NCBI RefSeq assembly: GCF_000024945.1
Contig: NC_013520.1
Coordinates: forward strand, 1,637,001-1,701,000
Direction: 5' to 3'
Source: Veillonella parvula DSM 2008
Lineage (GTDB): Bacteria > Bacillota > Negativicutes > Veillonellales > Veillonellaceae
Length of the DNA: 64,000 nucleotides
Every line of letters starts with the position of its first letter. Position 1 is the stretch's first letter. Below, piece by piece: positions 18,832-35,348 of the stretch. The translations under genes and the position numbers were made by a program. A model generated the notes under the pieces. That model did no database searches. It had not been told where the DNA came from and saw only the letters and a list, made by a program, of their open reading frames with translations.

Positions 18832-19617
18832 CTACCGAACCATCACCCATGGACGATCATCTTTCCATACAACTTGTACGGAAAGTCCAAAGACATCAGA
18901 TAAAATATCATCAGTTAGTACCTTGTGTTTAGGACCTGCATGAATCATCTTACCCTCTCGCAAGATAGCTACATGAGTAATAAACGATAGTATCTCTTCA
19001 ATTTGATGTGACACATAGATAATCGGTGTCTGCTGCTCAGCTACCAAAGTGGATACGGTGCGTAAAAACTGCTCCCTCGCTGGTAAGTCCAAACCAGAGC
19101 AAGGCTCATCCAAAATCAATAATTCTGGATTTGCCATAATAGACCTCGCTAACAATACCCGGCGCTGTTCGCCAGCAGATAAGGTGCGAAAACGATGACC
19201 TTCCAAATAGTCTAGTCCAAATTCAGATAATAATTGCATACCTCGTTGGCGCACCTCAGGTGCTACCTCTTGGTATATACCAATGCTACTAAATGCACCA
19301 GAAATAACGATATCTTCAACGACTTGTTTATCCAAGGTTGACTGAAATTGTCCAAGCGCAGAGCTAACAAATCCTAGTCTAGCCTTGATTTTAGGCCACG
19401 CATATTTACCAAATTCCTTGCCAAACACACGTAAAGTACCCGTTGTGGGAATTTGATAAGCAGGTATCATGCTGAGTAGCGTTGATTTACCAGCCCCATT
19501 AAGCCCTAATAAGGCCCAATGTTCACCGTCCTCTATATGCCAATTTACATTATCTAAAATAGGTCTACCATCACGGCGAAAGCAGACATTTTCATAATGG
19601 AGTAATTCACGCCCCAC
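18832..19617 (-). CDS. Orphan ABC-type ATPase (YlmA/ModF-like)
   Basis: 261 residues, a complete ATP-binding protein: Walker A 'GLNGAGKST' (about residue 38), signature 'LSAGEQRR', Walker B 'LLILDEPCSGLD' and H-loop 'VSHQ'. 'RPILDNVNWHIEDGEHWALL' is typical of the YlmA/ModF-like group. No permease or binding-protein gene is adjacent. It begins 11 nt after ilvN and so lies in the ilv transcript. Partner and substrate cannot be told from sequence; it could pair with a distant permease or act on a non-transport target. Confidence 0.88.
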   Translation of the reverse strand: MGRELLHYENVCFRRDGRPILDNVNWHIEDGEHWALLGLNGAGKSTLLSMIPAYQIPTTGTLRVFGKEFGKYAWPKIKARLGFVSSALGQFQSTLDKQVVEDIVISGAFSSIGIYQEVAPEVRQRGMQLLSEFGLDYLEGHRFRTLSAGEQRRVLLARSIMANPELLILDEPCSGLDLPAREQFLRTVSTLVAEQQTPIIYVSHQIEEILSFITHVAILREGKMIHAGPKHKVLTDDILSDVFGLSVQVVWKDDRPWVMVR

Positions 19618-19628
19618 GTTATCAGCTC

Positions 19629-20117
19629 CTACATTTTTTCTCCGCGACTCATAGCGGTGATACCTGTTTTGGCAATTTCAAGAATACCATAAGTTTCCAT
19701 AATTTGAATGAAGCCACGTAATTTTTCTACACTGCCAATGACTTCAATGATCATAGATGTAGGAGAAATATCTAACACATTACCACGATATACATCGGCA
19801 ATCTGTACAATTTGTGATCTTGTAGAAGCAGATGCTTTTACCTTGATAAGCATTAACTCACGGCATACCACATCATGATCTTCAAACACTTTAACCTTAA
19901 CAACATCGATAAGCTTGTAGATTTGTTTTTGCACTTGATCGAGAATTCGGTCATCGGCCTCTACAGTAATAGTAATACGTGCATAACCTGGCTGATTTGT
20001 AATGCCAGATGTCATTTTTGTAACGTTAAAGCCACGACGGTTAAAGAGTGCCAAAATACGTGTACCAATACCTGGTGCATTTTTTGCAATGATTAAGACT
20101 TGATGTTCTTTCGCCAT
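19629..20117 (-). CDS. ilvN: Acetolactate synthase small (regulatory) subunit
   Basis: 162 residues. An N-terminal ACT domain ('VLIIAKNAPGIGTRILALFN', 'RRGFNVTKMTSG') and a C-terminal regulatory domain ('ELMLIKVKAS', 'IIEVIGSVEKL') as in IlvN/IlvH. It activates the catalytic subunit and gives valine feedback inhibition. The start overlaps the ilvB stop (TAATG), the usual translational coupling of this pair. Confidence 0.96.
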   Translation of the reverse strand: MAKEHQVLIIAKNAPGIGTRILALFNRRGFNVTKMTSGITNQPGYARITITVEADDRILDQVQKQIYKLIDVVKVKVFEDHDVVCRELMLIKVKASASTRSQIVQIADVYRGNVLDISPTSMIIEVIGSVEKLRGFIQIMETYGILEIAKTGITAMSRGEKM

Positions 20118-21826
20118 TATAGCACCCCTTTCTTACCCATCATACCGCTTATCGTGCCGCCTGCTGGAATCATTGGTAATACATTATCCTCTCGTTCAAC
20201 GCGACAATCCAAGACAATGCTTTCATCCGATGTAATGTATGATTTAAATTCTTTGTTGAAAGTTTCAACATTATCTAGACGCGCTGCTTTCAAGTCAAAT
20301 GCATCTGCGAGTTTCACGAAGTTCGGACTCACTTCCAAATCTACATAGGAGTAGCGTCTATCATTGAAGATTTCTTGCCATTGACGAACCATACCAAGAT
20401 AGCCGTTGTTAATAATAACAATCTTGATTGGCAAATTATATTGGCGAACCATCATGAGCTCTTCACAAGTCATTTGGAACCCGCCATCACCGACAACAAG
20501 GATAACTTGCTTCTTAGGCGCCCCTACTTGAGCCCCAATAGCCGCCGGCAAACCATACCCCATGGTACCCGCACCGCCAGAGGTAACGATAGTATGAGGT
20601 TTTTTATGAGTTAAGAATTGAGCCGCCCACATTTGATGTTGGCCTACATCACTTACGATTATGGCATCATCCTTGGCAATTTTGTTAAGTTCAGATAACA
20701 CATATTGTGCATGCAATACACCATTTTTAGACTCAGGAATTACCATAGGGTATTCCGCTTGCCATTCTCGGATTTGCTCAAGCCACGCTTCATGCGTTGT
20801 AGGTTCTACAAGAGCATTAAGCTCCGTTAATACCTGTTTTAAATCCCCTACGATAGGCACGTTGATTGTAACATTCTTATCAATTTCAGCTGGGTCGATA
20901 TCGATATGAATAATTTTAGCTTTTTTACAGAAGAAATCTGGATGGCCTGTGATGCGGTCATGGAAACGAATCCCTGCAGCAATCACGAGATCTGCCTCAT
21001 CTGTACTATTATTAGCGGCTACAGAACCGTGCATACCAACCATGCCAAGAGCCAATTCGTGATCTCCTGGGAAGCCACCAAGACCAACTAATGTATTCGT
21101 CACCGGGATTTGAGCCTTTTCAGCTAATTCTTTAAGCTCATCCATAGCGCCAGACTTCAATACACCTGCTCCAGCAATGATAAGTGGGCGCTTTGCATTT
21201 TTGATAAGAGTAGCTGCTTTTTTGATTTGACCTTGATGACCTTTATAGGTTGGATCATAGCCTTCAAGATGAATAGGTACTTCGTACAATTTGTTGTATT
21301 CCGCCATGGATATTTTTTCTGTTTGAATATCCTTGGGAATATCGATGAGTACAGGGCCTGGGCGACCTGTGCCAGCAATAAAGTACGCCTCTTTAATGAT
21401 ACGAGGCAAATCATGAATATCTTGAACAAGATAGTTATGCTTGGTTATAGGCATCGTAATACCTTGGATATCCGCCTCTTGAAAGGAGTCCTTACCGATA
21501 AAGGGCCGGCCAACCTGACCTGTAATGGCCACCATAGGTACGGAATCCATGTACGCAGTCATAATACCTGTTACAAGATTCGTTGCACCAGGACCAGACG
21601 TAGCAAGACATACACCTACGCGACCAGATACGCGAGCATAGCCATCTGCTGCATGTGCAGCACCTTGTTCATGACGAACAAAGTAATGTTTAATTTCAGG
21701 GAAGCTATATATTTCATCATAAATTGGAATTACCGCACCACCTGGATAACCGAACATATCGGTTACACCAAGGCGATGCAATGTTTCAAGGACAATGCGT
21801 GCCCCATTGATTGTTTCTGCGCTCAT
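20117..21826 (-). CDS. ilvB: Acetolactate synthase large (catalytic) subunit
   Basis: 569 residues. Thiamine-diphosphate enzyme making acetolactate and acetohydroxybutyrate from pyruvate and 2-ketobutyrate. 'MFGYPGGAVIPIYDEI' and 'RHEQGAAHAADGYAR' (the catalytic Glu) are N-terminal; the ThDP motif 'GDGGFQMTCEELMM...NN' is at about residues 435-465. FAD-domain text is seen in the middle ('LVGLGGFPGDHELALGM'). AAAGGG lies 5 nt before the ATG. Coupled to ilvN. Confidence 0.97.
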   Translation of the reverse strand: MSAETINGARIVLETLHRLGVTDMFGYPGGAVIPIYDEIYSFPEIKHYFVRHEQGAAHAADGYARVSGRVGVCLATSGPGATNLVTGIMTAYMDSVPMVAITGQVGRPFIGKDSFQEADIQGITMPITKHNYLVQDIHDLPRIIKEAYFIAGTGRPGPVLIDIPKDIQTEKISMAEYNKLYEVPIHLEGYDPTYKGHQGQIKKAATLIKNAKRPLIIAGAGVLKSGAMDELKELAEKAQIPVTNTLVGLGGFPGDHELALGMVGMHGSVAANNSTDEADLVIAAGIRFHDRITGHPDFFCKKAKIIHIDIDPAEIDKNVTINVPIVGDLKQVLTELNALVEPTTHEAWLEQIREWQAEYPMVIPESKNGVLHAQYVLSELNKIAKDDAIIVSDVGQHQMWAAQFLTHKKPHTIVTSGGAGTMGYGLPAAIGAQVGAPKKQVILVVGDGGFQMTCEELMMVRQYNLPIKIVIINNGYLGMVRQWQEIFNDRRYSYVDLEVSPNFVKLADAFDLKAARLDNVETFNKEFKSYITSDESIVLDCRVEREDNVLPMIPAGGTISGMMGKKGVL

Positions 21827-21844: not shown

Positions 21845-23068
21845 CTATTCAGATAAAATCTCGCTGGAATTTAATCGTTTAATAATGTAACCATTATGTT
21901 TGAAAGTATCAATAATGTGTTGGATGTGCTCTTCACCATTTGTTTCTACCGTTACTTGCAATTCCACTTCATGGAAACGGTCAAGGTTTTTGAACTGATT
22001 ATGGTCAAGTTTAATAACATTTGCATCTGCATCGGCTAACATTTGAGATACAGCCACTAACTGGCCTGGTTTATCAGGAAGATTAACGGAGAAGGTAAAG
22101 ATACGACCACGCAATACGAGACCTTTATTAATCATTGACGAAATAGTAAGTACGTCGATATTACCACCGCTGACGATAGCTACCACCTTTTTATCGCGGC
22201 ACTCTAATTTCTTGAGGCCAGCAAGTGGCAAAATACCGGAATTTTCTGCTACTAACTTATGTTTTTCAACAAGCAATAAAAATGCTTCCATCAATTCATA
22301 ATCAGAAACGGTAATAATTTCATCTACGTATTGCTTGATATATTCTAATGTAGTTTCCCCAATTTGACGTACTGCCGTACCATCTGCAATCGTTGCCACT
22401 TCATCGAGAGGTACAGGATGATCAGCCTTTAAGGCAGCTAGGGCACTCGCTGCACCTTCTGGTTCTACACCGATAATCTTAACGCGCGGATTTTTTAATT
22501 TCGCAGCAGCAGCAATACCAGATACGATACCACCGCCCCCAACAGGAACGAGCAAAATATCCGCATCAGGCAATTCATCAAGAACCTCAAGGGCAATTGT
22601 ACCTTGCCCTTCTATTACATCTTCATCATTAAACGGATGAACGAACACATAGCCATGCTCTTTCTGCAACTCCATCGCCTTTTGATAGGCTTCGTCATAA
22701 ATCTCGCCAAATAATACAACATCTGCACCGTATTGTTTTGTTGCATTAACCTTGATAAGAGGGGTATGTTTCGGCATGACAATAGTCGCTTTAATGCCAA
22801 GACGTTTCGCAGCAAGGGCCACGCCTTGTGCATGATTACCGGCAGACGCAGCGATAACACCGCGCGCCTTTTCTTCTTCTGTCAGTTTTGCAATTTTATT
22901 ATAAGCTCCACGAACCTTAAAAGAGCCTGTTATTTGCAAGTTTTCTGGCTTGATATATACATCATTTCCGCACTCGTCAGAAAACACATCACTATGAAGT
23001 AACTTCGTTTTCACAGTGATTGTACTCAAGCGCTCACGAGCCTCCATAAAATCATATAACTTATACAT
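21845..23068 (-). CDS. ilvA: Threonine ammonia-lyase (threonine deaminase), ACT-domain type
   Basis: 407 residues. PLP-dependent; deaminates threonine to 2-ketobutyrate, which enters Ile synthesis. The PLP Lys lies in 'ITGSFKVRGAYNK' (about residue 52), 'AASAGNHAQGVA' and 'PVGGGGIVSGIA' bind the cofactor. The C-terminal 75 residues form one ACT domain ('FSVNLPDKPGQLVAVSQML'), the short form with a single regulatory domain. I choose the ATG 9 nt after AGGAG; a GTG 6 nt earlier is too close to that site. Lies between ilvD and ilvB in the operon. Confidence 0.95.
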   Translation of the reverse strand: MYKLYDFMEARERLSTITVKTKLLHSDVFSDECGNDVYIKPENLQITGSFKVRGAYNKIAKLTEEEKARGVIAASAGNHAQGVALAAKRLGIKATIVMPKHTPLIKVNATKQYGADVVLFGEIYDEAYQKAMELQKEHGYVFVHPFNDEDVIEGQGTIALEVLDELPDADILLVPVGGGGIVSGIAAAAKLKNPRVKIIGVEPEGAASALAALKADHPVPLDEVATIADGTAVRQIGETTLEYIKQYVDEIITVSDYELMEAFLLLVEKHKLVAENSGILPLAGLKKLECRDKKVVAIVSGGNIDVLTISSMINKGLVLRGRIFTFSVNLPDKPGQLVAVSQMLADADANVIKLDHNQFKNLDRFHEVELQVTVETNGEEHIQHIIDTFKHNGYIIKRLNSSEILSE

Positions 23069-23110
23069 ATACACGGTCTCCTCTAGTTAGTATTAAATGA
23101 AAGTCGAGTA

Positions 23111-24781
23111 TTAGTCTTCAAATACTTCGATAGCACCTTGTGCAGCAGAGGATACGTGAAGAGCGTATTTTTTAAGATATCCAGTTACATTGGATTTGAA
23201 CGGTTTCAATGCCGCTTTACGACGAGCGATTTCATCATCAGATACAGCTAGTTCCAATTTACCGTTTGGAATATCGATGTTGATAATATCACCATCTTCA
23301 ACGATGGCAATGGTACCGCCTGCAGCTGCTTCTGGAGATACATGTCCGATGGATGCACCACGAGTAGCACCGGAGAAACGACCATCTGTCAACAAGGCTA
23401 CGTCTTTATCGAGCCCCATACCGGCAATCATAGATGTTGGTGTCAACATTTCCCGCATGCCAGGCCCCCCTTTAGGACCTTCGTAGCGGATAACGACAAC
23501 GTCACCTTTTACGATTTTACCGCCTGTGATAGCTTCAACCGCTTCTTCTTCGCTGTTGAATACTTTAGCTGGACCAGAGTGAACGAGCATATCTGCATCT
23601 ACGGCACCGGCTTTTACAACGGAACCATCTTCAGCGAGATTGCCTTTAAGAACGGCGATACCACCAGTTTCATGAACTGGATTATCCCAAGGATGAATAA
23701 CATCTTCGTCTGCTACGAATGCTGCCTCAGCAATTTCACCTTGTGTTTTAAGAGCAACAGTTTTGCAATCTGTATGAAGGCGACCATTTTCTGCTAAACG
23801 TTTCAACACCGCAGATACACCACCTGCAGCGTACAAGTCTTCGATGAAGTATACACCAGATGGAGATAATTTAGATAATTGAGGTGTATTTTGGGCGATG
23901 CGATCAAAATCGTCTAAGGATAGTGGTACACCTGCTTCGTGAGCAATAGCCGGTAAATGAAGCGCCGTATTAGAGGAGCCACCCAAAGCCATATCAAGAG
24001 CTACCGCATTTTCAAAGGCTTCACGAGTCATAATATCTTTAGGGCGAAGGTTTGCTTTTAATACCTCTACCGCTTGCATACCAGCTAACTTAGCTAAACG
24101 CAAACGTTCAGAATATACCGCTGGGATTGTACCATTGCCAGGAAGGCCCATACCGAGAGCTTCTGTTAAACAGTTCATTGTATTTGCCGTATACATACCA
24201 GAGCAAGAGCCACATGTAGGACATGCTGTATTTTCGATATCAGCTAACTCAGCATCATCCATTTCACCAGTTTGATGTTTGCCTACGGCTTCGAATACGT
24301 CGGACAAGCCAATTTTTTTACCTTTATGTACACCAGCGAGCATGGCCCCACCAGATACGAATACAGATGGGATATTAAGGCGAGCAGCTGCAATCAACAT
24401 GCCTGGCACTACCTTATCGCAATTTGGAATGAATACCATCGCATCAAATGGTGTAGCCATAGCAGTAGCTTCGATAGAATCTGCAATGATATTACGTGTA
24501 ACTAAGGAGTATTTCATGCCGATATGGTTCATTGCCAAACCGTCGCAAATACCGATAGTATTGAACTCGATTGGCACACCACCTGCGTTGCGGATGCCGT
24601 CTTTTACGGCTTGTACAATATTTTTCAGGCCTACGTGACCAGGGATGATTTCATTGAAAGAGTTGGCAATACCGATGACTGGTCTCCCCATTTCTTCATC
24701 AACGAAACCCAGAGCTTTTAGTAAAGATCTGTGTGGTGCACGTGCTACGCCTGTTTTCAAATTGTCACTTCTACAACTCAT
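23111..24781 (-). CDS. ilvD: Dihydroxy-acid dehydratase
   Basis: 556 residues. Fe-S dehydratase producing the 2-keto acids of Val/Leu and Ile. Cluster cysteines can be placed in 'NCDKVVPGM' (about residue 120) and '[18 protein letters not shown]' (about residue 190). '[20 protein letters not shown]' is the C-terminal signature. The start follows GAGGAG by 6 nt; an upstream in-frame extension of 15 codons reads through that site and is rejected. First structural gene after the leader with the attenuator-like terminator. Confidence 0.97.
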
Positions 24782-24835
24782 GTTAATCTCCTCACTTTTG
24801 AAAGCATCCACTTGGACAGCTTTCACGACGCATAA

Positions 24836-24866
24836 AAAAAGACGATTCCAATGAATCGTCTTAAAA
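24836..24866 (-). terminator. Leader terminator (putative attenuator) before ilvD
   Basis: AAGACGATTC-ATTG-GAATCGTCTT then TTTTTATG on the minus strand: a perfect 10-bp stem with a T run, lying about 55 nt before the ilvD ATG and about 105 nt after the leader frame's stop. As it sits between the leader reading frame and ilvD, it should block the operon unless prevented. Confidence 0.85.
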
Positions 24867-24899
24867 GTTTACAAATGATATTCCTTTTGTTTACAGAAT

Positions 24900-24945
24900 T
24901 CCTATATACATAAATAATCCTATGTACCCCTTGGAAAATATACAC
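24900..24945 (-). promoter_or_regulatory. Mutually exclusive pairing elements in the ilv leader
   Basis: On the minus strand TATGTG, TACATA and TATGTA follow one another. TACATA can pair with TATGTG before it (one G-T) or with TATGTA after it, but not with both. Such alternatives are expected in an attenuator; the short 6-bp helices make this tentative. Confidence 0.35.
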
Positions 24946-24972
24946 ATAAGAAACAAACCATATAGTCAAATC

Positions 24973-25104
24973 TTATTGATTGTATATTAAACCATTCGCG
25001 GAACTTCTAAGACAAAAACGTGTTAAGTTGTTGTTCATAATTCGAATGTCATTAATAATCACGACTAGCGCAATAATCAATAAGCTAATGACTAAACCTA
25101 ACAT
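24973..25104 (-). CDS. ilvL: Candidate ilv leader peptide (43 codons)
   Basis: A short frame with a perfect AGGAGG 4 nt before its ATG. Of codons 2-22, 15 encode Leu, Ile or Val ('LGLVISLLIIALVVII' then 'NDIRI'); over the whole peptide 19 of 43 do. It lies between a promoter-like sequence and the terminator preceding ilvD, the position of ilvL/ilvB-type leader peptides whose ribosome stalling on branched-chain codons relieves termination. The tail ('NNNLTRFCLRSSANGLIYNQ') is unusually long for a leader. It could alternatively be a small single-span membrane protein; the location favours regulation. Confidence 0.7.
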   Translation of the reverse strand: MLGLVISLLIIALVVIINDIRIMNNNLTRFCLRSSANGLIYNQ

Positions 25105-25157
25105 GTTTCCTCCTAAAATATTCTGTAATAATAATCACGGAATAATAATAACACGTT

Positions 25158-25185
25158 ATATTATCCCGCGCAAGATAATTCACAA
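25158..25185 (-). promoter_or_regulatory. Putative promoter of the ilv leader operon
   Basis: TTGTGA, 16-bp spacer, TAATAT on the minus strand, about 55 bp before the leader peptide start. The hexamers are only moderate; other registers are possible. The stretch between here and 25284 shows no other feature. Confidence 0.45.
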
Positions 25186-25283
25186 TAAATTCTATAGATT
25201 CATCATAGTTTTTTTATGAAGTTCACCATATCCAAAAACTATAGCAAACCTAGTAAGGTATAAAAAATATAGATATAACAAGA

Positions 25284-25312
25284 AAAATCCCTCACCGTAG
25301 TGAGGGATTGAA
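25284..25312 (-). terminator. Intrinsic terminator after the DASS transporter
   Basis: AATCCCTCAC-TACG-GTGAGGGATT followed by TTTCTTG on the minus strand, directly after the transporter stop. It isolates the ilv leader from upstream transcription. Confidence 0.9.
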
Positions 25313-25316
25313 TATA

Positions 25317-26720
25317 TTATAAAATACCAAAGAGCCACATGCCAAAAGTGCCGCCCCAGAAATGAATGAGGAAACTTACCACAGAAATGGCAAGGCCTAC
25401 GCGCCACCACGTACATTGTGGCACATAACCAGCACCGAAGAAGATCGGTGTTACACCTGAACTATAGTGAGTCAATGTACAACCAGGGCTGTTCATCAAA
25501 CCAAAGAGCAATATCGTAAACGGAATAGGAGCCCCCATCGCCACTAAAATAGCTGCAAAGGCGGAGAATAAAGCTGTAATACGCGCCGTACCACTGGCAA
25601 AGAAGTACTGAGAGTACACAAAGGTAGCGGAAATGATAAAGGATGCCCAGAACCAGTCAAAGCCAGCTAAATGTTGACTTACAAAATCTGCAAAGACAGC
25701 TACTACACCGAGTTTACCAAGCAGTCCAGCCATGCCCACAAGCGTACCCATCCAGATGAGGATATCCCAGCCGGTGCGTTCACCCAAAATATCCTCCCAC
25801 GTAAGGGATCCTGTTACAACACACGCTAGAACCCCCATCATCGCAACAACTGTAGGATGAAGCTTAGTCCAAATTGCTGTAGCCCAAAGCAAGATGCAAA
25901 GTACAAAGATAATAGCAACAGAAATTTCAGCCTTCGTAATAGGTCCAAGAGCCTCTAGTTCTTTTTGAGCCATTGCAGCAGCCTCTGGTGTTTCCTTGAT
26001 TTCTGGTGGATAGATTTTATAGATGAACCAAGGCATCAAAATCATACAAATCACACCAGGAATGACACCTGCTTGGAACCATTCCCACCAAGATATATCA
26101 TAGCCAAACAGTTTAGCACCTAAAGACGTAATAAGCAAATTACCGCTACATGCGGTCAAGAAGATTGTCACAGTAATAGTGTTAATAGTATGTGCTGTCG
26201 TCATCAAGTACGCCCCAATGCGGCGGGCCGTATTACCATAAGGTTCAGAACCAAAAGCTAAGGAAATATTTTGTACGATGGGGAATACAATACCACCTCC
26301 ACGCGCCGTATTAGATGGTGTAGCTGGAGAAATAATCAAGTCCGTACAAGCCAACGCATAGGCAAGCTTTAATGAGCTTGTGCCAAAAGAACGAATCAAG
26401 GTGTACGCAATACGCTTACCAAGACCAGAATTAATAATACCTCGTGAAAAGAATACCGCCGCTACGATAAGCCACACATTCGCCTCTGCATAGCCACCTA
26501 GAGCCTGTACCATAGTGATGGAATTAGTGGCTACGGCTACAACAATACCAAAAAGCGCCATAATGCCCGTTGGCCAGGGACGTAAGATAAAGCCCACAAT
26601 AGTAGCCGTAAAGATAGCTAATAAATGCCAACCTTCAGGCTTGATTGCCTCTGTATGAGGTAAAAACCAAATAACGAGGCCCACTAAAACGGTAAGGGCC
26701 GCTCGTGTAAAAGTATTCAT
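25317..26720 (-). CDS. DASS/SLC13-family anion symporter or antiporter (CitT/DiT1 type)
   Basis: 467 residues with about 12-13 hydrophobic segments. 'SPATPSNTARGGGIVFPIV' (about residue 132) carries the SNT substrate-loop motif and is characteristic of the CitT/TtdT/2-oxoglutarate-malate translocator branch; 'NSPGCTLTHYSSG' is the matching second half. Likely exchanges or imports di- or tricarboxylates such as malate, tartrate, citrate or succinate; the exact substrate is not visible. It follows a cupin gene by 16 nt and ends at a terminator. Dicarboxylate exchange would fit a lactate/malate-fermenting anaerobe (inference). Confidence 0.88.
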   Translation of the reverse strand: MNTFTRAALTVLVGLVIWFLPHTEAIKPEGWHLLAIFTATIVGFILRPWPTGIMALFGIVVAVATNSITMVQALGGYAEANVWLIVAAVFFSRGIINSGLGKRIAYTLIRSFGTSSLKLAYALACTDLIISPATPSNTARGGGIVFPIVQNISLAFGSEPYGNTARRIGAYLMTTAHTINTITVTIFLTACSGNLLITSLGAKLFGYDISWWEWFQAGVIPGVICMILMPWFIYKIYPPEIKETPEAAAMAQKELEALGPITKAEISVAIIFVLCILLWATAIWTKLHPTVVAMMGVLACVVTGSLTWEDILGERTGWDILIWMGTLVGMAGLLGKLGVVAVFADFVSQHLAGFDWFWASFIISATFVYSQYFFASGTARITALFSAFAAILVAMGAPIPFTILLFGLMNSPGCTLTHYSSGVTPIFFGAGYVPQCTWWRVGLAISVVSFLIHFWGGTFGMWLFGIL

Positions 26721-34629: not shown

Positions 34630-34705
<76 letters not shown>

Positions 34706-34708
34706 ATG

Positions 34709-34783
34709 TGGTGACCCGTCCGGGAATCGAACCCGGGATACCGCCGTGAAAGGGCGGTGTCTTAACCGCTTGACCAACGGGCC
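34709..34783 (-). tRNA. tRNA-Glu (UUC), copy 2
   Basis: 75 nt with CCA. Acceptor GGCCCGT/ACGGGTC, anticodon arm CCGCC-CTTTCAC-GGCGG (anticodon TTC), T-arm 'GGGTTCGATTCCC'. Besides translation, Glu-tRNA is the substrate of the hemA product in this window. Identical to 35034-35108. Confidence 0.97.
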
Positions 34784-34791
34784 AATAAAAA

Positions 34792-34867
34792 TGGCTCCTC
34801 GAGTAGGACTCGAACCTACGACCGATCGGTTAACAGCCGATTGCTCTACCGACTGAGCTATCGAGGA
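34792..34867 (-). tRNA. tRNA-Asn (GUU), copy 2
   Basis: 76 nt with CCA. Acceptor TCCTCGA/TCGAGGA, anticodon arm ATCGG-CTGTTAA-CCGAT (anticodon GTT), T-arm 'TAGGTTCGAGTCCTA'. Identical to 35193-35268. Confidence 0.97.
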
Positions 34868-34874
34868 ATGTGTA

Positions 34875-34949
34875 TGGAGCGGGAAACGAGATTCGAACTC
34901 GCGACCCCCGCCTTGGCAAGGCGGTGCTCTACCGCTGAGCTATTCCCGC
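34875..34949 (-). tRNA. tRNA-Gly (GCC), copy 2
   Basis: 75 nt with CCA. Acceptor GCGGGAA/TTCCCGC, anticodon arm CCGCC-TTGCCAA-GGCGG (anticodon GCC), T-arm 'CGAGTTCGAATCTCG'. Identical to 35274-35348. Confidence 0.97.
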
Positions 34950-34952
34950 AAA

Positions 34953-35028
<76 letters not shown>

Positions 35029-35033
35029 ATATG

Positions 35034-35108
35034 TGGTGACCCGTCCGGGAATCGAACCCGGGATACCGCCGTGAAAGGGCGGTGTCTTAACCGCTTGACC
35101 AACGGGCC
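35034..35108 (-). tRNA. tRNA-Glu (UUC), copy 1
   Basis: 75 nt with CCA; same sequence as 34709-34783. Anticodon TTC. Confidence 0.97.
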
Positions 35109-35113
35109 AAAAA

Positions 35114-35189
35114 TGGTGACTCACCCGCGACTCGAACGCGGGACACCCTGATTAAAAGTCAGGTGCTCTGCCAACTGAGCTAGTGAGTC
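35114..35189 (-). tRNA. tRNA-Lys (UUU)
   Basis: 76 nt with CCA. Acceptor GACTCAC/GTGAGTC, anticodon arm CCTGA-CTTTTAA-TCAGG (anticodon TTT), T-arm 'CGCGTTCGAGTCGCG'. The only tRNA in the array present once; the other half of the duplication lacks it. Confidence 0.97.
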
Positions 35190-35192
35190 AAA

Positions 35193-35268
35193 TGGCTCCT
35201 CGAGTAGGACTCGAACCTACGACCGATCGGTTAACAGCCGATTGCTCTACCGACTGAGCTATCGAGGA
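35193..35268 (-). tRNA. tRNA-Asn (GUU), copy 1
   Basis: 76 nt with CCA; same sequence as 34792-34867. Anticodon GTT. Confidence 0.97.
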
Positions 35269-35273
35269 ATGTA

Positions 35274-35348
35274 TGGAGCGGGAAACGAGATTCGAACTCG
35301 CGACCCCCGCCTTGGCAAGGCGGTGCTCTACCGCTGAGCTATTCCCGC
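35274..35348 (-). tRNA. tRNA-Gly (GCC), copy 1
   Basis: 75 nt with CCA; same sequence as 34875-34949. First tRNA of the transcript, about 10 nt downstream of the proximal promoter's expected start point. Confidence 0.97.

Follow-up and report, generated by a model that had tools for sequence, protein, structure and literature searches.

The question raised by this locus is how transcription of the Veillonella ilvDABN operon is controlled. The T-box riboswitch (RF00230), which reads tRNA charging, precedes ilv operons in related Negativicutes; the Veillonella element is a leader reading frame instead. A preliminary description of the DNA had proposed classical translation-coupled attenuation at this site. 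On the sequence comparisons given here, it is very likely that a ribosome-mediated transcription attenuator controls ilvDABN, and the mechanism would be of a known kind, well supported by comparison. The window (the whole stretch of 64,000 nucleotides that was analyzed) is part of a 2.13 Mb Veillonella genome (G000), and 13 other genomes of the genus were compared with it.

Layout of the ilvDABN locus

The leader elements and the ilv genes all lie on the minus strand of the window. Promoter, AGGAGG, 43-codon frame, 10-bp terminator and ilvD, as listed in the preliminary description, were each confirmed in the sequence. The leader promoter reads TTGCGC-17-TATTAT (25145-25173), its spacer ending in TGT, with TG at the extended -10 place; a consensus promoter scan of the window did not list this site. 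Judging from the -10, transcription would begin some 34 nt upstream of the leader ATG. The leader Shine-Dalgarno (SD) sequence AGGAGG (25109-25114) was identified from the sequence and the Veillonella alignment, and the leader peptide ORF (24973-25104; MLGLVISLLIIALVVIINDIRIMNNNLTRFCLRSSANGLIYNQ), 43 codons and a stop, from its open frame and its relatives. A 110-nt spacer separates the leader stop from the intrinsic terminator stem-loop (24839-24862), which has a perfect 10-bp stem and a run of 7 T (24840-24834).

The first operon gene, ilvD (23111-24781), was assigned from Pfam ILVD_EDD_N and C matches on a longer ORF (23111-24826), and its start was set at ATG 24781 by its own SD (GAGGAG) and by alignment. 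It is followed by a gene at 21845-23074 which we take to be an ilvA-like threonine dehydratase, a PLP enzyme with an ACT domain (computed domains: PALP over cut-off, ACT below cut-off). Next come ilvB (acetolactate synthase large subunit, 20117-21826, TIGR00118 over cut-off) and ilvN (small subunit, 19629-20117, TIGR00119 over cut-off), and the downstream order is ilvD, ilvA, ilvB, ilvN, ABC ATPase, ilvC. The ABC-transporter ATPase ORF between ilvN and ilvC (18832-19617) was under cut-off in each of the best 25 of 187 NCBIfam matches, and a 55% relative of it stands after ilvN in a record (L095) resembling the uncultured family genus g2. Upstream, likewise on the minus strand, lies a gene of the sodium:sulfate symporter family (25286-26720). 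A 10-bp terminator of its own closes it, which makes the ilv leader probably an independent unit.

At gathering score, Rfam matched tRNAs only in the window and no family at the leader. A relaxed search of 24700-25400 (E<=1) returned one chance-level lncRNA match and no T-box, in agreement with the T-box-free reading of the preliminary description. Elsewhere on the minus strand (34633-35348) nine tRNA genes form an array in which members of equal score recur, as a partial duplication might leave them. Short matches to the terminator stretch (33 bases, 88%) were seen at other loci in two Veillonella genomes (L016, L017).

The leader peptide and its conservation

The earlier count of 15 Ile/Leu/Val among leader codons 2-22 was exact (15/21; 25039-25101), and this stretch is the predicted stall region. 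As a control, ORFs were collected from the window and 20 further stretches of this genome, 464 kb in all. Among those of at least 25 codons with an SD-like motif, 2 of 683 reached 12/15 Ile/Leu/Val near the start; the second (L176) was rejected because a 298-aa open frame encloses it in another reading frame. Of 493 ORFs with at least 40 codons, the leader alone reached 14 Ile/Leu/Val in codons 2-22. Control ORFs with a hydrophobic N-terminus (n = 36) carried a mean of 8.6 there (maximum 13), and the 19 distinct family leaders 13-17 (mean 15.2). The Ile/Leu/Val share among hydrophobic residues was 0.89 in the leaders vs. 0.51 in the 36 control N-termini. By count and by share, therefore, the run is unlike the ordinary membrane helices of this genome.

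A peptide profile from a 7-row leader alignment matched 14 of 28 Veillonellaceae genomes, all Veillonella, and ilvD was therefore used as the search anchor. The gene was found in 28/28 family genomes, which span four genera. One locus (L073) was dropped because a contig end leaves just 263 nt upstream of ilvD, and 27 were assessable. The search required an SD-like motif and a run with 11 or more Ile/Leu/Val in 15, and no row failed; an SD-preceded ATG leader with 12-13 of 15 Ile/Leu/Val, followed by a terminator, was present in 27/27. The preliminary description had called for relatives to be compared for codon bias and hairpins, and had held that homologous loci without the terminator would count against attenuation: codon bias, SD and terminator were found at every assessable locus. 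Within Veillonella, the RNA directly upstream of ilvD is conserved and followed by a terminator in 14/14 genomes, 13/14 of which were aligned; V. parvula SKV38 IlvD is 99% identical to the window IlvD. The promoter pattern TTGCNN-17-TATNAT was present in 13/14 Veillonella rows. The g2 row has it too, and L067 and the rows of genera g3 and g4 gave no match to it.

The leader peptides differ between genera: MLGLVISLLIIALVVIIND... in g1 (Veillonella), MVLLAILVLVLFLVVNVIR... in g3, MLGLVVVIISLLIIIDIIV... in g4 and MLLLLALIIIISLISLYVVV... in g2. Identical leaders in named records suggest that g3 includes strains VA142, VA137 and 3310, that g4 includes V. ratti, V. seminalis and V. intestinalis, and that g2 includes an uncultured Veillonellaceae MAG. 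Besides the Ile/Leu/Val run, leaders of different genera have little sequence in common.

Substitutions were counted in 12 of 14 Veillonella rows (9 distinct leader DNAs; L067 and L068 omitted; codons of L038 past its stop included in the tail). Codons 2-18 had 4 synonymous-only and 2 nonsynonymous columns, codons 19-29 had 0 and 2 among 11 columns, and codons 30-43 had 1 and 12. With the frame-shifted L038 and L064 set aside (10 rows), nonsynonymous change touched 3/14 tail codons. The tail frame is shifted in 3/14 Veillonella rows (L038, L064, L067), where the peptide becomes VLEVP..., and strand 2, the RNA segment encoded there, is kept.

These counts bear on a reading in which the ORF product is itself functional, a small membrane protein expressed along with the operon, and the terminator only adjusts expression. 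The hydrophobic character of the peptide, the four synonymous-only columns among six variable ones in codons 2-18 and the small tail change in the ten unshifted rows would suit such a protein, although constraint on the RNA would also give the last of these. Against it, the tail that the preliminary description would have expected a membrane protein to preserve is not preserved in the three shifted rows while strand 2 stays, the genera share little beyond the Ile/Leu/Val run, and the hydrophobic part is almost only Ile/Leu/Val, as control N-termini are not. A Pfam search with 5 leaders gave no match in 3 and one each in 2 (E 0.03 and 0.05), far below cut-off. We regard a small membrane protein as extremely improbable. 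The C-terminal half, noted earlier as poor in branched-chain residues, proved to encode the antiterminator strand; with strand 2 inside the reading frame, the tail would be RNA first and peptide second.

The conserved RNA has been seen before. A 2021 survey (PMC8632094) lists an 'ilvD motif' (WRC-18-2) with 73 representatives, in Veillonella only and always before ilvD, as a weak riboswitch candidate. The position upstream of ilvD, the genus, the long stems and the terminator, reported for some representatives, are as in the window, and the window element is very probably this motif. The published treatment differs in its restriction to Veillonella and in that the ilvD-motif section names no leader frame, although attenuators with upstream ORFs (uORFs) are recognized elsewhere in the paper. 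A literature search for 'ilvD motif' returned PMC8632094 alone, and no named leader peptide for the Veillonella ilvD region was found in the open-access literature searched.

If the motif were a metabolite-binding riboswitch, helix 1:2 (strand 1 paired with strand 2) would be its aptamer stem, and termination would depend on a ligand, which might be a branched-chain intermediate or ppGpp. The published listing and the strongly conserved nucleotides of codons 19-29 speak for a riboswitch. However, the survey itself reports little covariation in the long stems, no Rfam family matches at gathering score, codons 2-18 hold four synonymous-only columns, and the conserved part is the SD and frame, the Ile/Leu/Val run being kept over four genera while other sequence diverges. 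A riboswitch is on these grounds very unlikely, and the attenuator remains the preferred reading.

Alternative pairings and ribosome position

The 'alternative short helices' of the preliminary description can now be specified. Strand 1 (25118-25095) holds the leader SD and start codon. Strand 2 (25029-25002) covers leader codons 26-35. Strand 3 (24869-24856), 14 nt long, takes in most of the 5' arm of the terminator, which is itself formed by strands 3:4. Strand 1 pairs with 25029-25005 of strand 2 in the window minimum free energy (MFE) structure, and does so as a duplex in the other genera; in V. montpellierensis (L068), altered bases preserve helix 1:2, as judged by eye. The antiterminator part of strand 2 (25015-25002, codons 30-35) pairs with strand 3 over 14 bp. 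Folding of the 311-nt RNA, proposed earlier as a check, gave z = -2.73, with 1/100 shuffles as good. Comparison between genomes supports each predicted part: leader, codon bias, terminator, antiterminator and helix 1:2.

The 2:3 duplex was found in 27/27 rows, at -13.5 to -22.6 kcal/mol and starting at codons 25-32. Shuffled leaders matched its energy in 0-14 of 200 trials; the g2 duplex is the weak one (14/200). Pairs were counted over 16 distinct rows, 14 from the family and 2 from Fusobacteriota, with the g2 row left out. L077 was left out as well, since its best register without gaps is not the register of its duplex. Paired cells made up 87.5% vs. 81.5% after shuffling (0/500), and 11 cells were changed on both sides vs. 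3.4 (0/500); in slid registers pairing fell to 36-54% of cells. Two further pair measures lay within the shuffles (45/500 and 54/500). Exchanging strands between g1 and g3 weakened the duplex from its own -16.7 and -14.7 to about -7 kcal/mol (-6.7 vs. -16.7), and g1 and g4 strands were exchangeable without loss. Own pairing beat all cross-genus partners in only 7/20 rows for 2:3 and 11/21 for 1:2, because g1 and g4 share strands. The antiterminator recurs across the family with compensatory changes, covarying on most measures.

Ribosome position was modeled in two ways. For helix 1:2, the RNA was ended before strand 3 and means were taken over 26 distinct rows. The 1:2 pairing probability was 0.60 on ribosome-free RNA. 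One ribosome gave 0.07 at codon 3, 0.41 at codon 6, about 0.67 (not blocked) at codons 9-15, 0.51 at codon 18 and 0.70 at the stop. With a second ribosome queued at the start it was at most 0.01. A single ribosome at codons 9-15 leaves helix 1:2 in place, so a queued second one must be assumed.

In the second model, the RNA was ended in the terminator 5' arm and the ribosome placed at varied codons. The antiterminator probability without any ribosome was 0.88-0.96 in 11/14 Veillonella rows. With the ribosome at the stop it was 0.9 in the window and most of those 11 rows. Both results run against expectation. The window antiterminator was lost only with the P-site on codons 27-39. A ribosome at the stop removed it in L038, L068 and 5/7 g4 rows. 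Stalls at codons 11-18 brought it to 0.00 in L068, L069, L040 and L078. For the g2 row, every stall position short of codon 45 failed to yield it. The models went in the expected direction when the ribosome stalled early or stood on strand 2. Equilibrium folding was also tried as a switch test and was uninformative: in 10 modeled rows the terminator won or nearly won in most states, so the switch must be kinetic.

The interpretation in the preliminary description is supported, though less strongly than its word 'classical' implies. The comparative tests favor it; in the Veillonella model, however, an absent ribosome or one at the stop codon leaves the antiterminator forming. An off state after smooth or absent translation would rely on helix 1:2 forming first, during transcription of the spacer between strands 2 and 3.

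The proposed sequence of events is as follows. Under a shortage of charged Ile, Leu or Val tRNA, the ribosome would starve within codons 2-17 and, with a queued ribosome, cover strand 1. Strand 2 would then be free to pair with strand 3 as it emerges, no terminator would form, and ilvD would be transcribed. Under smooth translation, the ribosome would pass strand 2 and leave, and helix 1:2 would re-pair before strand 3 is made, hiding the SD. Strand 3 would then pair with strand 4 and transcription would stop some 50 nt short of ilvD. If the leader is not translated, termination would follow in this way only if helix 1:2 forms first and holds. Stalling, kinetics and direction of response are inferences. 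Because the antiterminator strand is encoded within the leader frame, with the leader SD as the competing strand, each transcript is proposed to be read about once.

The content of strand 1 admits another logic, in which the leader would work mainly through opening its own SD-sequestering helix and would read general translation capacity, not branched-chain aminoacyl-tRNA. Strand 1 does contain the SD and start codon, and in the model a ribosome near the start suffices to free strand 2. Such a sensor would need no conserved Ile/Leu/Val run, yet the run is present in 27/27 family rows and at 6/10 Fusobacteriota loci, which makes general sensing quite unlikely beside stalling on branched-chain codons.

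Origin of the operon and comparison with known systems

Among the best 80 named-genome matches, relatives of the window IlvD included Leptotrichia hongkongensis and Fusobacterium gastrosuis (79%) and three Fusobacteriota MAGs (77-79%); Negativicutes outside the family reached 63% at best. Those five Fusobacteriota carry ilvD-ilvA followed by ilvB or ilvN-ilvB, with IlvA 69.5-76% identical; in L086, 1.3 kb lie between ilvD and ilvA. In an IlvD tree of 98 rows (quick method), the family nested among Fusobacteriota (SH-aLRT 100), and a careful 30-row tree agreed (100/100). The sample consisted of the best 80 matches to the window IlvD and chosen loci, and is biased towards close relatives. A single IlvD clade of Veillonellaceae and other Negativicutes was rejected (log-likelihood difference 152, p-AU 7e-63). 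An IlvB tree of 15 rows placed Veillonellaceae and Fusobacteriota together vs. f2, another family of the same order (100/100); in it the Veillonellaceae were not one clade (2 changes), and f2 alone stood outside.

Similar leaders occur in Fusobacteriota. An Ile/Leu/Val-rich leader was present at 6/10 Fusobacteriota ilvD loci among the best 80 matches. The antiterminator was strong in 4 of the six (0-1/200 shuffles as good) and weak in 1 (15/200). In F. gastrosuis leader and terminator were present and the antiterminator was not found (191/200 shuffles as good). Terminators of L094 and L096 were assigned by visual inspection, and 18 flanking bases, not the usual 12, were allowed in their duplex search. 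No leader was found at L100 and L102, and L103 offers only 152 nt upstream of ilvD. In Cetobacterium (L158), an SD-preceded 20-aa ORF with five Ile in a row lies about 206 nt upstream of ilvD, with a terminator before ilvD; it is possibly a further attenuator, found under looser criteria only.

Among class-level ilvD loci outside the family (L043-L061), the ilvD start was recognized in 5/19. L043 had a 24-aa ORF with 9/15 Ile/Leu/Val without a terminator, L054 and L057 a terminator without a leader, and L058 and L060 neither. No T-box at gathering score was found in 20 short-flanked ilvD loci (16 from L043-L061). In f2, a T-box lies 3-5 kb upstream of ilvD in 5/6 genomes with ilvD; in the three loci opened it stands directly before ilvC, followed by ilvB, ilvN and ilvD. 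By a hand count from best matches, at least 13 class genomes outside the family, the five from f2 included, have a T-box on the ilvD strand no more than 5 kb upstream of the gene, and none was found at that distance in the four family genomes examined. The window genome itself has six T-box matches (L181-L186), three of them over the family cut-off, before cysS, thrS, leuA, glyQ, trpE and ileS, which places leuA and ileS under T-boxes and ilvDABN not.

Taken together, the IlvD grouping with Fusobacteriota, the similar leaders there and the T-box in a related family indicate that the attenuator-controlled ilv operon probably entered the Veillonellaceae ancestor by horizontal transfer from Fusobacteriota. 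The direction depends on taking the rows outside the Fusobacteriota-Veillonellaceae group as outgroup. We lean towards a wider reading, in which the ilvD motif is a self-limiting attenuator that moved with ilvDAB(N) from Fusobacteriota to Veillonellaceae, so that one sensor of tRNA charging took the place of another through gene transfer.

An orphan RNA motif that the literature carries as a weak riboswitch candidate thereby gains a testable mechanism, which may save a ligand search, and the element is extended from Veillonella to four family genera and some Fusobacteriota. T-box and leader peptide would be two sensors of tRNA charging before the ilv operons of related diderm Firmicutes, the change between them being tied to operon transfer. 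With T-boxes retained ahead of leuA and ileS in the window genome, both kinds of sensor could be compared in one cell.

The enterobacterial ilvGMEDA, ilvBN and trp leaders combine codons for the end product, alternative 1:2, 2:3 and 3:4 pairings and an intrinsic terminator, and the Veillonella element has these features in common with them. The trp leader stop lies before strand 2; in the Veillonella family, unlike trp, the frame continues across strand 2 and ends 4-18 codons past it (g2 row aside).

Within Firmicutes, predictions of histidine leader attenuators exist for three other lineages (PMC9413887). The Corynebacterium ilvB-II, ilvB-OMG and Leptospira ilvB motifs were re-read in 2023 as uORFs (PMC10272879). 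They resemble the Veillonella element in that a branched-chain-rich uORF, first described as an orphan RNA motif, precedes an ilv gene, in ilvB-II with a terminator. They differ in gene and taxon, and the ilvB-II uORF usually has 15-17 codons; that paper makes no mention of ilvD, Veillonella or Negativicutes. Another Firmicute case is the ilvD leader of S. aureus, with an Ile/Leu-rich 26-aa peptide, a ribosome-binding site and a terminator 52 nt past the leader stop, where selected mutants in leader, structure or terminator raise operon expression (PMC5794164). The antiterminator proposed there pairs with the poly-U tail and leaves the terminator stem intact, whereas in Veillonella strand 2, inside the leader frame, is predicted to pair with the 5' arm of the terminator, and the role of strand 1 falls to the leader SD. 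As read from the sequence, this layout is unusual in both respects: the putative antiterminator strand lies inside the leader frame, and the leader SD is the competing strand.
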